NCBI GenBank assembly: GCA_022448265.1
Contig: JAKVCC010000010.1
Location: 62,001 to 126,000 of the forward strand
DNA length: 64,000 nucleotides
Source of the DNA: Pirellulales bacterium
Lineage (GTDB): Bacteria; Planctomycetota; Planctomycetia; Pirellulales; Lacipirellulaceae
Direction of reading: 5' to 3'
Shown here: positions 14,528 through 19,817 of the stretch, piece by piece
Position numbering within the stretch: position 1 is the stretch's first letter
How the letters are laid out: every line of letters begins with the position of its first letter
Program-made: the position numbers and the translations under genes
The notes under the pieces: generated by a model
What the model was told of the DNA's origin: nothing
Seen by the model: only the letters and a program-made list of their open reading frames with translations
Database searches by the model: none

Positions 14528-16615
14528 TCAATGCACCCGCTGTCCCGGCACAGCCCCTTCGTCGGGCGACAATACGAAAACTTCGCTCCCGCCAGGACCG
14601 CTGGCAACGACCATGCCTTCGCTAAGGCCAAATTTCATTTGCCGCGGGGTCAGGTTGGCTACGCACACGACGAGTCGGCCCACGAGTTCGTCGGGCTCGT
14701 AAGCGGCCTTAATCCCGGCGAAGACCTGGCGGTACTGCCCACCACCCAGGCTCAATCGCAACTTTAGCAGCTTTCGCGCGCCAGACACGTGTTCCGCCGC
14801 AACCACGCGCGCTACGCGAAGATCTACTTTCAAGAACTCGTCAAAATTACACTCCGGGGCAAGTGGCTCAGCCGCCAGCGCATCCCCGCTATCGTTCCAA
14901 GGGTCCGCGTCTCCCGTTTCCCCACGACAGTCATCGCCTTCGCCGCGTCCCTGGTCACCGGTGTCTTCACGACTTTCTTCAATCATAGTGCGTACATCCT
15001 TTTCTTCGACCCGTTTGAGCATATGACGGAACTTTGCGACCGGCGTGCCTGTCAGAGGCACCTTTGCTTGGTCCCAATGCGTGATCGGGCTATTCAACAG
15101 CTCACCAGTCTGTTCCGCCACGCGAGGCAGCACAGGTGCGAGATAAATGGCCAATTGACGAAAGAGGTTGAGAGCGATAGTGCAAACATCCTGCAGCTCA
15201 GAAAGCCGCTCCGAATCCTTACGCAACTCCCATGGTTTGTTTTCCTCAACAAATGGATTGGCGCGATCAGCCAGCGCCATGATTAGGCGCATCGCCCGGC
15301 CGGTGTCGCACGATTCATAAGCCTCAGCGATTTCGTCGCCGGTGGCGGCTGCGGCAGCGAATAAGCCGCCGTCCTCCGGATATACGGCCGACAAGCCGAT
15401 TTCCGCGACAAACTTCGCCGATCGGCTGGCGAGATTAACAAATTTTCCCACCAGGTCCGTATTGACCTTCGTGACGAATTCATTGAGCGAGAGGTCGAAA
15501 TCGTCAATGCGGTTCGATAACTTCGACGCGTAATAATACCGCAAGTACGCCGGGTTCAGGTGATTCAAGTAGGCCCTTGCTTTGACATAGGTTCCCTTGC
15601 TCTTCGACATCTTCTCACCATCGATCGTGAGAAAGCCATGCACGTGAACCTTGGCCGGTAGCGTGAACCCAGCCGCGGATAACATGCCTGGCCAAAACAG
15701 TGTGTGGAAGTACGTTATGTCTTTGCCGATGAAGTGGTGAATCTCGCAATCATCTGAGCGCCACCAATCATCAAAGTTCTCGCCATGTTTGTCGCACCAT
15801 TGCTGGGTGGACGCCATGTAGCCAATGGGCGCGTCGAACCAGACATACCAGTAGTTGCCGGGAGCGTCGGGAATCTCAAATCCGAAATAAGGCGCCGGGC
15901 GGCTGACATCCCAGTCGCGCAGCGGCTCGGGCTGGTCGGGGGGGCCGAGAAAGTGGCCTCGCAAGTAGTTAGCAGTCTCGTCCTGCAAGGCGCCTGAGCC
16001 CTGCGTCCAGTTTTCCAAAAATTCGTGGAACTGCTCTAGCTCAATGAACAGGTGATCCGCGTCGCGAGGCTCGGGCACGGTGCCGCTGAGCGTACTGCGC
16101 GGGTCGACGAGTTCAGCGGGAGAGTAAGTGCAGCCACATTTGCTGCAGTTGTCGCCCGGCTGGTCCTGAGCCCCACATTTTGGGCAAGTACCACGAACGA
16201 AACGGTCGGCCAAAAAAATACCTTCCTCTGCATCATAGAGTTGGCGGACGCGATCGCTCTTGACGAGTCCCACCTCGCGTATTCGACTCCAGATTTCGCC
16301 GCAAAGCGACCGGCATTCGGCGCTGTGTGTGCTACCAAAATTATCCAGTGAAATATCAAAATCTCGCAGGTCGGCCTCATGGGCGACATGGACTTCGGCG
16401 ATTAGCTCTTCTTCCGTCCGCCCTTCGCGCCGCGCGCGAATCATGGTCGCCGTACCATGGGTGTCGTCCGCACACACGTAAACGCACAAAGCGCCTCGCA
16501 ATCGCTGGAACCGAACCCAGATATCGGTCTGAATTGCCTCAACCATGTAGCCGAGGTGGATGTCGGCGTTCACGTAGGGTAAGGCGGACGTAACAAGTAA
16601 GCGGCGCTGGGACAT
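14528..16615 (-). CDS. metG: Methionyl-tRNA synthetase with C-terminal tRNA-binding domain
   Basis: About 695 residues from the ATG at 16615; three more codons upstream also open with ATG at 16624. Numbering below is from 16624. Class I signatures: HLGY (23-26, the HIGH equivalent) and KMSKS (338-342). The zinc knuckle of the MetG1 type is CPKC...CSKC (147-163). The core is followed by an anticodon-binding helical domain. Next is an acidic, glycine-rich linker (about 550-595), then a Trbp111/EMAPII-like OB domain ([17 protein letters not shown] to the end). It charges tRNA-Met in the cytoplasm. Monocistronic; its 3' end converges with the RNase Z-like gene. Confidence 0.97.
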
Positions 16616-17062
16616 GGATGGCAACTTGCTGGTGGGAACGGGTTAAGTATCGAGGCGGTACGCTTAATAGCAAAACGATAGCAGTGCAGGCGGCGCCGAC
16701 GATCGGCCCATTGTAGCCGCACATCCGCTGGGCCGGGAACCCATGATTGGCATGCAAGATGCATCTGTAGGCATTGTCCTGGACAATGTTGACACTCTCT
16801 GCATTGCCAGCATGTTCCGCATCACCAAGCGGAGCTGGTGTGCCCAAGTCGGCACGCCGGCATCCCCGAAGTTGGTATTGTAAGAATTACGAAACTCGAG
16901 CAAATTATTGGCTTGCTCCTGCCGCTAGCGACAGGAGCAAGAGAAACTGTTGTTGCGATAATGGTGGACTAGGCCCAAACCGGCAAAGAAGGATCTTTAC
17001 CGGGTGGGACACACATTGGGTGCGCCATTGATCAAGCGACCTGGTATCCATGGAGGGAACCG
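16616..17062. other. Gene-free region with two inverted repeats
   Basis: This 447-base divergent spacer between metG and the thioredoxin-protease gene holds no convincing gene. It contains the palindrome CATTGTCC-T-GGACAATG (16772-16788). It also contains a strong hairpin: CTTGCTCCTG (16912-16921) pairs perfectly with CAGGAGCAAG (16932-16941), with an inner CGC/GCG. Neither is followed by a T-run, so they look regulatory rather than terminating. Confidence 0.6.
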
Positions 17063-18586
17063 ATGGTCTGGAAGCGTTCTAAGCACGTACTTGCACTTGC
17101 ATCAAGTCTTCTAGCACTGGGTATCTATCCGGCAGGGGCAGAAACTGTTCTTCTTGATTTCAATTCGGCCACCTGCAGGCCTTGCCAACAAATGCGACCG
17201 GTGGTACGCGGGCTGGTCTCCGCTGGTTATGAAGTACGCGACATCGACATCCAGCGCAAGCCTCAAATTGCAAACCAGTTTGGCATCGTCAAGGTTCCCA
17301 CCTTTGTGGTCTTGGTAGATGGCAGGGAAACCGATCGCGTGGTCGGACCTGCAAGTTTTGCGCGGCTAGAACAAATGCTGGCCCGCTCGAGTGCCCACCC
17401 TACTTCGAGTCCCTTACACACGGTCACCCACGAGAATCGTGCGGGTTCACAGACTCGAGAGCCTGCTCAACCTCTAGTGGGACCCGTCGTGCAGATTGAA
17501 GGCCCGGCCGTTGCTGCAGGTTCGGGAGACGCCGCAGCCGGCCCTGTTCCGGATCGACCTGGAGCGCCGCCGGCGCTGCTAAAGAGCGCATCCACCGAAC
17601 AACGCGCACTGATTGAAGCCTCTGTCAAAATCACGGTGGACGACCCCAAAGGCAAGTCCGCTGGCACCGGCACGCTGGTCGACGCCCGCCAAGGTGAAGC
17701 ATTGGTGCTGACCTGCGGCCACCTGTTTCGCGAATCGGGCGGACAGGGCCAGATCACAGTGACTCTATTCCATCAAACCCCGCAGGGCGTGCAACCCGGC
17801 GCCTCGTTTTCCGGAAAGCTCATTGAGGTGGATTTAGAACGCGATTTGGGCCTAGTGAGCATCCGCCCCAACGTGCAAGTGCAGCCAGTCAAAATTGCCA
17901 CCCGCAGCGGTTCGCTCCCACCCGGCAGCCGGGTGACGTCAATTGGCTGTGACAGGGGCGCAGCACCAAGCGCCCGCCAATCGCAGGTCACCGCCAACAA
18001 CCGTTACCAGGGCCCCGGCAATATTGAGGTAGCCGGGGCACCGGTCGACGGTCGCAGCGGAGGAGGACTATTCAACGAATCGGGCGAACTAGTAGGCGTA
18101 TGTTTTGCCGCCGACCATCAAGACGATGAAGGGCTCTACGCATCGCTCCGTTCAGTACACGCGAAGTTCGATAGCCTGGGCTTGTCTGCAATCTACCTGG
18201 GTCCCGCCGTCAAAACACCAACGCGTCCCGCACAGCTACAACAAGGGCCACAAGTTGCAGCAACACCGAGTCCCGGTTTTTCCGTGCGAGGCCAGGAGCC
18301 GGCCCAGATTCCGACCAGTGAAAGTGGCGTCATGATCCAGACGGGTCCACCCAGTCTGCGTCCGGTTGAACAGGCGGCTTGGGAAGAGATTCAGCGCCGC
18401 GGTGCCAACTCGGAAGTAATATGTATCATTCGTCCGCACGATCCTGCTGGCAAAAGCGAAGTGATCACCCTCAACAACGCTTCGCCCGAGTTCGTGCGAG
18501 AACTCAAGCGTCCGCGTGCCGTACCGGGCGGAACGGCATCGTCGCCACCGGCGACCGCCGCCGTCGTGGAACGCCTCTTGCGTTAG
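17063..18586 (+). CDS. Secreted thioredoxin-trypsin fusion protein
   Basis: 507 residues. A signal peptide (about 1-26) is followed by a thioredoxin domain (27-108) with the redox pair C38-RP-C41 and cis-proline region KVPTFVV. After a Pro/Ala-rich linker (110-180) comes a trypsin-like serine protease domain (183-375). Its likely triad is H220 (LTCGHLF), D261 (ERDLGLV) and S332 (GRSGGGLF), so it appears active. The C-terminal 130 residues are low-complexity and hypothetical. Acting in the periplasm or outside the cell, it could couple disulfide state to proteolysis; this is inference. The start at 17063 follows AGGGAACCG, a usable ribosome-binding site. No partner gene is adjacent. Confidence 0.87.
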   Translation: MVWKRSKHVLALASSLLALGIYPAGAETVLLDFNSATCRPCQQMRPVVRGLVSAGYEVRDIDIQRKPQIANQFGIVKVPTFVVLVDGRETDRVVGPASFARLEQMLARSSAHPTSSPLHTVTHENRAGSQTREPAQPLVGPVVQIEGPAVAAGSGDAAAGPVPDRPGAPPALLKSASTEQRALIEASVKITVDDPKGKSAGTGTLVDARQGEALVLTCGHLFRESGGQGQITVTLFHQTPQGVQPGASFSGKLIEVDLERDLGLVSIRPNVQVQPVKIATRSGSLPPGSRVTSIGCDRGAAPSARQSQVTANNRYQGPGNIEVAGAPVDGRSGGGLFNESGELVGVCFAADHQDDEGLYASLRSVHAKFDSLGLSAIYLGPAVKTPTRPAQLQQGPQVAATPSPGFSVRGQEPAQIPTSESGVMIQTGPPSLRPVEQAAWEEIQRRGANSEVICIIRPHDPAGKSEVITLNNASPEFVRELKRPRAVPGGTASSPPATAAVVERLLR

Positions 18587-19116: not shown

Positions 19117-19554
19117 TCAAACAGATCCTGGCGCGCCTTTGGAAATGTAGACTTGCTGGGGATCAAAAACCGGCTTGCTCATAATCTTCCATCCATCTGC
19201 AGTGCGCTTACGATAAAAGCAACTCGCGTAGCCCTGGTGACAGGCCGCGCCACCAACTTGTTCGACCTTTAGCAGAATCGTGTCCGCATCGCAGTCGATA
19301 TATATCTCGCGAATTTTCTGCACGTGCCCACTCGACTCGCCCTTTTTCCAAAGTCGGCCCCGGCTGCGACTGAAGTAAACCGCCTCACCCGTGGCCAGGG
19401 TTTCTTCCCAAGCCGCCCGGTTCATGTAAGCCAGCATCAGCACCTCGCCGGTTTGGGCGTCTTGGGCCACCGTCGGGAGCAATTGATTGTCGTTGGCAAA
19501 TTTCGGAATGTTTTCCAAGGGAATGACCTGCGCGTGGGGACCGCCTCCCAGCAT
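19117..19554 (-). CDS. hisI: Phosphoribosyl-AMP cyclohydrolase
   Basis: About 145 residues from the ATG at 19554; an in-frame TTG at 19644 would add 30 non-conserved residues. HisI signatures are complete: [21 protein letters not shown], the region from [31 protein letters not shown] (metal-binding aspartates) and [14 protein letters not shown] (zinc cysteines). It opens the purine ring of PR-AMP in the third step of histidine biosynthesis. The domain stands alone without HisE fusion, and no other his gene is nearby. Confidence 0.96.
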
Positions 19555-19817
19555 ACTTCGCGTAGAACCCGTTGGCCACCTTGCCCAAGACCCCTCAAGC
19601 CGTACGACCCGTGCGAAGCGCAATTTTGGTCGAACTGGCGCCAATCACTGTTTCGCTATTGGAAGATACCCGATTATGCCGATCCAATCGCGTAGGCTCA
19701 GACCAACGGGGGTCTTGGCCCAAATTGCCTGGAGCTAGTCTTGGTCGTCAACCCTGCCTCGCTGTGTCGAACCACGCCGGCCAAAGGGCCGCTCCTACTG
19801 CCTGAAGAGGAGTTGCC

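Follow-up and report, generated by a model that had tools for sequence, protein, structure and literature searches.

Organization of the fusion gene

In a 64,000-nucleotide stretch of DNA from a Pirellulales bacterium, referred to here as the window, we identified an open reading frame at positions 17063 to 18586 on the plus strand, which begins with ATG and encodes a 507-amino-acid protein in which a thioredoxin domain is fused to a serine protease domain. The gene lies alone on its strand, between the divergent metG (14528 to 16624) and hisI, which is encoded on the opposite strand (19117 to 19644). Its features are listed below.

17052 to 17057, plus strand: Shine-Dalgarno-like GGAGGG, 5 bases upstream of the ATG (read from the sequence)
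17063 to 17140, plus strand: signal peptide-like segment, residues 1 to 26, with an AxA-type end, AGA/ET (from the sequence)
17141 to 17392, plus strand: thioredoxin domain, residues 27 to 110 (Pfam E 9.5e-11; pLDDT 94 to 97 over residues 31 to 110)
17174 to 17185, plus strand: CRPC redox motif, C38 to C41 (read from the sequence)
17393 to 17599, plus strand: low-confidence linker (pLDDT below 50 over residues 115 to 173)
17600 to 18196, plus strand: S1/HtrA-type protease domain, residues 180 to 378 (Trypsin_2, Foldseek, VIA-align)
17714 to 17716, plus strand: C218, two residues ahead of the catalytic His (column comparison)
17720 to 17722, plus strand: catalytic His220, in 149 of 149 fusions, aligned with the DegP His
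17843 to 17845, plus strand: catalytic Asp261, in 148 of 149 fusions (Glu in one, L018)
17948 to 17950, plus strand: C296, in 149 of 149 fusions
18056 to 18058, plus strand: catalytic Ser332 within GRSGGG, in 149 of 149 fusions
18101 to 18103, plus strand: C347, in 149 of 149 fusions
18197 to 18349, plus strand: Pro/Ala-rich linker (residues 389 to 395 and 397 to 429 at pLDDT below 50)
18350 to 18514, plus strand: small C-terminal domain, residues 430 to 484, helix-strand-strand-helix (folded alone)

Domain architecture and predicted fold

Comparison with Pfam placed Thioredoxin (PF00085) at residues 27 to 107 (42.1 bits against a cut-off of 23.5) and Trypsin_2 at residues 201 to 346 (E 3.9e-20; 73.5 bits against a cut-off of 27.6). 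Both families were matched at E ≤ 0.001 by all 60 members of alignment A2, which comprises the window protein and 59 relatives drawn from the best 80 loci in named genomes. As judged from its sequence, the fusion is an S1/Trypsin_2 peptidase that contains a PF00085 domain. A preliminary description of this DNA had reported a thioredoxin–protease fusion with both active sites intact, which was confirmed at the sequence level: C38, C41, H220, D261 and S332 all occupy the positions given there, and both domain profiles scored over their Pfam cut-offs.

AlphaFold2, supplied with the window protein and its 59 relatives, returned pLDDT values per ten-residue block of 94 to 97 for residues 31 to 110 and 81 to 98 for residues 181 to 380, with the two linkers of the fusion at low confidence. 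HtrA proteases were the best PDB matches identified by Foldseek (DegQ, E 4.3e-12), and VIA-align superposed residues 173 to 375 on DegP with a Z-score of 24.0 and an rmsd of 2.5 over 188 residues; the corresponding values for MarP (Rv3671c) were Z 23.2 and rmsd 2.0 over 174 residues for 3k6z, and Z 23.3 and rmsd 7.9 over 189 residues for 3k6y. In a profile alignment of the protease part (E 5.7e-11 to DegP), H220, D261 and S332 lined up with the His, Asp and Ser that we take to be the DegP catalytic triad, and no triad residue was misplaced at the level of sequence or fold. In the thioredoxin domain, the cis-proline Pro79 was kept in 149 of 149 fusions.

Scores against narrower families stayed below their cut-offs, with 31.0 bits against 416.2 for the Do/HtrA family proper (TIGR02037), 19.5 against 250 for the MarP family (NF033740) and 44.3 against 96.8, far from the cut-off, for the NCBIfam thioredoxin equivalog. 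Neither the Pfam matches of the window protein up to E 1 nor the 12 families found across the 60 members of A2 include a PDZ domain.

The preliminary description had also called the polypeptide secreted, and a signal-peptide-like start is indeed present, residues 6 to 18 of which form a helix in the AlphaFold2 model. By home-made rules, a hydrophobic 10-mer ahead of the thioredoxin strand was found in 57 of the 60 aligned members and an AxA-like site ahead of that strand likewise in 57 of 60, and the fusion protease is probably exported or secreted. The mature chain would then start at the central thioredoxin strand; the PF00085 match begins only at profile position 19.

Folded alone, residues 430 to 484 gave a mean pLDDT of 85.2. 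This C-terminal domain, which carries a conserved EVICIIRP...KSEVI motif (18350 to 18514), had no match in Pfam; comparison with the PDB likewise found nothing similar in sequence up to E 1 or in fold at E ≤ 0.001. A search for it in 40 genomes of the order yielded 38 matches in 37 genomes, 33 of which fall at fusion locations known from the genome surveys; the other five lie in genomes (G014, G031, G035, G037 and G039) that had no comparable fusion location among the matches listed.

Conservation across the class

Using the window protein as the query, we obtained matches at E ≤ 1e-3 in all 296 genomes of the order, its own included, and by hand count the best match reached E ≤ 1e-20 in 269 of them; 12 of the 27 genomes with weaker matches are from genus g77. 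Searching the class with the family alignment gave matches at E ≤ 1e-40 in 283 of 397 genomes. When 392 genomes were sampled across the phylum, all 40 from the class matched at E ≤ 4.4e-78, and the 352 sampled from outside it gave no full-length match, the best (1.7e-22) covering the thioredoxin part only. These surveys scored five candidates per genome in the order and three in the class and phylum, so that copies may have been missed. Within the class, family f22 matched in 41 of 41 genomes at E ≤ 1e-25, with one genome (G760) showing only a protease without thioredoxin, and no match on the scale of the fusion was seen in the 26 genomes of family f118, where the best (E 3.0e-24) was in the thioredoxin range. 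Six weakly matching genomes (G054, G212, G170, G190, G206 and G214) were searched again and no whole fusion was found; G212 holds a thioredoxin fragment at a contig end, at a locus that also contains metG.

Named genomes yielded no relative when searched with the window protein alone and 411 when searched with alignment A1. The best 80 of these 411, which we examined, carry planctomycete or unspecific titles (one a 'bacterium' MAG) and include Bythopirellula polymerisocia, Lacipirellula limnantheis, Botrimarina and Aeoliella. Two loci titled Candidatus Kuenenia stuttgartiensis (L091 and L096) also hold family members; these titles may be wrong, because L091 groups with Pirellulales MAGs in the tree (L096 lies outside the tree).

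The architecture recurs across the class and, on this sequence evidence, is therefore old and widely conserved there. The notion that an assembly or annotation error joined two genes is practically untenable, and we rejected it: many genomes carry the identical domain order within one open frame, so that the architecture is not confined to the genome in which it was noticed. The combination had been described as uncommon, which needs revision: inside the class the family is widespread (283 of 397), and the 352 sampled genomes of the phylum outside the class, with three candidates scored in each, gave no full-length match.

Eight neighbours of the gene in the window were looked for in the 80 named loci; upstream sequence exceeds 2.2 kb in 61 of these. 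A divergent upstream metG was present in 44 and hisI downstream on the opposite strand in 20, and same-strand downstream ORFs resembling a glycosyltransferase and an XRE protein, which in the window sit beyond hisI, were present in 16 and 14, respectively; the four remaining neighbours were found in 2, 2, 2 and 0 loci. An explanation of the fusion through a gene cluster was not supported by these counts. A role in defence was rejected; PADLOC returned three matches (best E 6.8e-8), all of them to the protease part. Among the listed titles and opening lines of abstracts of open-licence papers, we found no paper on this fusion.

Three invariant cysteines in the protease domain

For column comparisons we compiled 149 distinct fusions, defined as open frames with a thioredoxin and a protease match and deduplicated on their last 250 residues; frames were closed at TGA, so that selenocysteine forms would fall outside these counts. 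Sixteen protease columns were identical in all 149 (G203, T204, C218, H220, F222, G295, C296, G299, G330, R331, S332, G333, G334, G335, G345 and C347), three of which are cysteines. In the DegP alignment, C218, C296 and C347 stand opposite the Asn residues of TNNH, AIGNPFG and GINTA. In the chymotrypsin fold, the strands of C296 and C347 presumably flank the strand that starts right after the catalytic Ser, and C218 presumably faces them from the other barrel. Between the start of the thioredoxin domain and the end of the protease domain, 124 of the 149 fusions carry one or more additional cysteines that are not conserved.

The thioredoxin motif was comparably constant, with CxxC in 148 of 149 fusions; the remaining row (L160) lacks the stretch because the start of its thioredoxin domain is missing at a contig edge. 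The motif reads CGPC, which is the motif of reducing thioredoxins, in 114 of 149.

Relatives that lack the thioredoxin domain

We assembled 18 relatives without a thioredoxin domain, consisting of 13 paralogues from f22, one protein from f118 (L175), one from the window's own genome (L002) and three from outside the class (L224 to L226). Two proteins cut by contig ends (L164 and L165) and a second, unrelated weak ORF of L079 were left out, and L253 (G190), an L002-like protease without thioredoxin, is not among the 18. All 15 relatives inside the class keep the catalytic triad. Position 218 is Ala in 14 of them and Asn in one; position 296 is Ile or Val in 13, Tyr in one and Cys in one; and position 347 is Cys in 14 and Leu in one. 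The three out-of-class proteins have Ala at 218, Cys at 296 and, ungapped, Ser at 347, where a nearby Cys aligns only across a four-residue insertion in L224 and L225 and the alignment of L226 stops before. Across the 18, C218 is thus present in none, C296 in four and C347 in 14 (with three more doubtful), and none holds the full trio. The f22 paralogues (L183 to L195) share GRSGGG and C347 with the fusion and mostly read TAAH in place of TCGH.

These relatives bear on a reading in which the cysteines are structural (a buried thiol and a disulfide that lends stability, both handed down from a single ancestor) and the thioredoxin domain serves as a module for binding substrates or partners or as an aid to the protein's own folding, without redox regulation. 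Such a reading accommodates the presence of C347 in 14 of the 15 in-class relatives without thioredoxin, as well as a single fusion origin, which is compatible with the well-supported branches of the tree described below. Nevertheless, we consider it improbable: a plain binding module would not need the CxxC that is kept in every fusion but the fragmentary row, and C218 is dispensable for the active site as such because 15 of 15 in-class relatives hold the triad without it.

A protease tree was built from 93 rows, comprising 75 of the 149 fusions and the 18 relatives without thioredoxin. The branches leading to the latter measure 1.9 to 3.6 changes per column, so that the placement of these rows is unsure. 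Three label changes were needed on this tree; a single change is compatible with the well-supported branches and was obtained in 0 of 200 bootstrap trees. Because of these long branches and label changes, the association of C218 with the thioredoxin domain may reflect one or a few old events.

Decay of the fusion in genus g77

No intact copy of the fusion was found in 12 sampled g77 genomes (completeness 82–91%). C38 was lost in 7 of 7 aligned g77 genes that hold the thioredoxin region, and C296 was lost in 8 of 8. Three of these genes (L229, L230 and L232) keep H220, D261, S332, C218 and C347 and lack C296; two of the three show a thioredoxin domain without CxxC, and the thioredoxin part of L232 lies beyond its contig. 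In the other five (L233, L239, L241, L242 and L243), neither C38 nor any residue of the triad remains, and C218 and C296 are gone as well; C347 is left in L242 and a Cys at position 41 in four. A further gene, L244 (G197), appeared degenerate by eye and lies outside the eight aligned, and L250 and L254 were left out of the counts as duplicates of L229 and L239. The g77 genes (L229, L230, L232, L233, L239 and L241 to L244) thereby form a series of decay from loss of CxxC and C296 with the triad in place to full pseudoenzymes. Loss of DsbD was rejected as the cause of this decay, with DsbD_TM present in 12 of 12 g77 genomes and 12 of 12 other genomes of family f17.

The complete cysteine trio was found only alongside an intact CxxC. 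This comparison supports, short of proof, a functional link between the CxxC and the cysteines of the protease, C296 above all, with the joint loss of C296 and CxxC resting on one genus and few independent events. The trio is not a strict unit, because single cysteines persist without CxxC in the g77 genes and in most relatives that lack thioredoxin.

Genus g77 also contains a second protein of reversed order, with an S1-like protease followed by a CxxC thioredoxin domain (for example CAPC) and a long tail. It was found as L246 and L247 (G114), L248 (G282), L252 (G153) and L245 (G288), the protease of L246 being recognised by eye only, and seems to have brought the two domains together independently.

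Redox partners and the proposed mechanism

Two ORFs in the genome of the window are relevant here: one of 646 aa matches DsbD_TM and has CWTC close to its C-terminus, and one of 467 aa matches VKOR (L228:1441-2844) and has a further thioredoxin-like CxxC domain (CGRC); both motifs were recognised by eye. The VKOR-type protein is likely an envelope oxidant. With DsbD_TM and VKOR proteins both in the genome, reducing as well as oxidising power can probably reach the envelope.

Such a supply of electrons would suit a reductase and a protease working in series, in which the thioredoxin domain opens wrong or damage-formed disulfides of exported proteins, the tethered protease degrades the opened substrate, and the protease cysteines are structural. 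DsbD_TM in the window's own genome and in 24 of 24 f17 genomes tested fits this arrangement, as do the CxxC in 148 of 149 fusions and cis-proline in all 149, the long low-confidence linkers expected of independent domains, and the five g77 loci with the reversed protein, as if the pairing were useful. We regard this reading as plausible but on the doubtful side, since taken alone it leaves two observations without explanation, namely that C218 beside the catalytic His occurs solely in forms fused to thioredoxin and that g77 genes with the triad in place lost C296 together with CxxC.

We tentatively favour, at somewhat less than even confidence, a protease that would be gated by a thiol switch and reset by its own thioredoxin domain, which does not exclude the serial arrangement. 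In design, the protease resembles a thiol-regulated HtrA as far as its sequence indicates. A change in the redox state of the core cysteines, C218 by the catalytic His and C296 and C347 on other strands, would change proteolytic activity, possibly through a putative disulfide between two of the three; both the pairing and the cell compartment of the protease are presumed. The CxxC of the fused domain would reset the protease cysteines, presumably in cis, and would itself receive reducing power from DsbD or be opposed by the VKOR-type oxidant that this genome also encodes. If DegP is a guide, reduction would activate the protease.

In favour of this switch, the trio is invariant in the 149 fusions and broken up wherever CxxC was found to be missing, and we further count the CGPC motif in 114 of 149, the DsbD_TM and VKOR proteins of the genome and the DegP precedent. 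Against it, the DegP disulfide lies in loop LA, at other positions; long linkers predicted at low confidence separate the domains; 124 of 149 fusions carry further unconserved cysteines; and the trio is not a strict unit and reflects few independent events. The preliminary description had suggested that the fusion could link redox state to proteolysis. Comparison now speaks for this, as the trio is kept with CxxC, absent in full from all 18 relatives without thioredoxin and lost along with CxxC in g77; the link itself is something we infer. As a whole, the earlier interpretation is partly supported.

In its broadest form, the thiol-switch reading describes a protease found throughout a planctomycete class whose redox controller would lie in the same molecule: the protease, a three-cysteine switch at HtrA Asn positions and its operator would be combined in one polypeptide, a system caught decaying in g77; this wider proposal is possible, though a shade more doubtful again. 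If true, it would provide a first function for a protein encoded by most of the genomes sampled (283 of 397) in a major bacterial class. Redox control has been reported for DegP with a separate reductant, and the fusion carries a thioredoxin in the same chain, so that whether a protease is switched by a redox partner within its own chain becomes directly testable. The matching cysteines and the natural series of decaying relatives offer a clean system for studying how a thiol switch close to the active site of a serine protease operates.

Comparison with known systems

The fusion shares the protease fold and the H-D-S order of the triad with the HtrA proteases (HtrA, DegP, DegQ and DegS; S1C), but differs from them in its N-terminal thioredoxin domain, its own small C-terminal domain, the three cysteines at DegP Asn positions and the absence of a detected PDZ domain. 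Likewise, its thioredoxin domain shares CxxC, the cis-proline and a score above the Pfam cut-off with Thioredoxin (PF00085), whereas it is probably exported, is fused and matches the profile from position 19 only.

Compared by description alone, the fusion also resembles proteases of the GOS survey in being a serine protease with conserved, presumably redox-active cysteines; the relevant passage of that survey reports selenocysteine-containing trypsin-like and 'MucD' serine proteases with conserved, presumably redox-active Cys/Sec, one with CxxU (PMC2398784). MarP (Rv3671c) is presented, in the part of its report that concerns us, as an envelope serine protease with a disulfide that is tied to oxidative stress (PMC4992679). 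MarP has a multi-pass membrane N-terminus (PMC4992679) and cysteines at other positions, whereas the N-terminus of the fusion is a thioredoxin domain. The passages on DegP and MarP describe no fused thioredoxin (PMC4339722, PMC4992679).

The closest parallel in regulation is E. coli DegP, for which, according to the passages on its redox control, activity rises when the Cys57–Cys69 disulfide is lost, and the protein is reduced in vitro by human thioredoxin 1 (PMC4339722). Both are HtrA-type proteases, exported in the case of DegP and probably so in the fusion, and DegP activity shifts with a thioredoxin-reducible disulfide (PMC4339722); the fusion is known from sequence. In DegP, as those passages have it, the disulfide lies in loop LA and thioredoxin is a separate protein, whereas the fusion carries the thioredoxin in its own chain and its cysteines at core positions of the protease.
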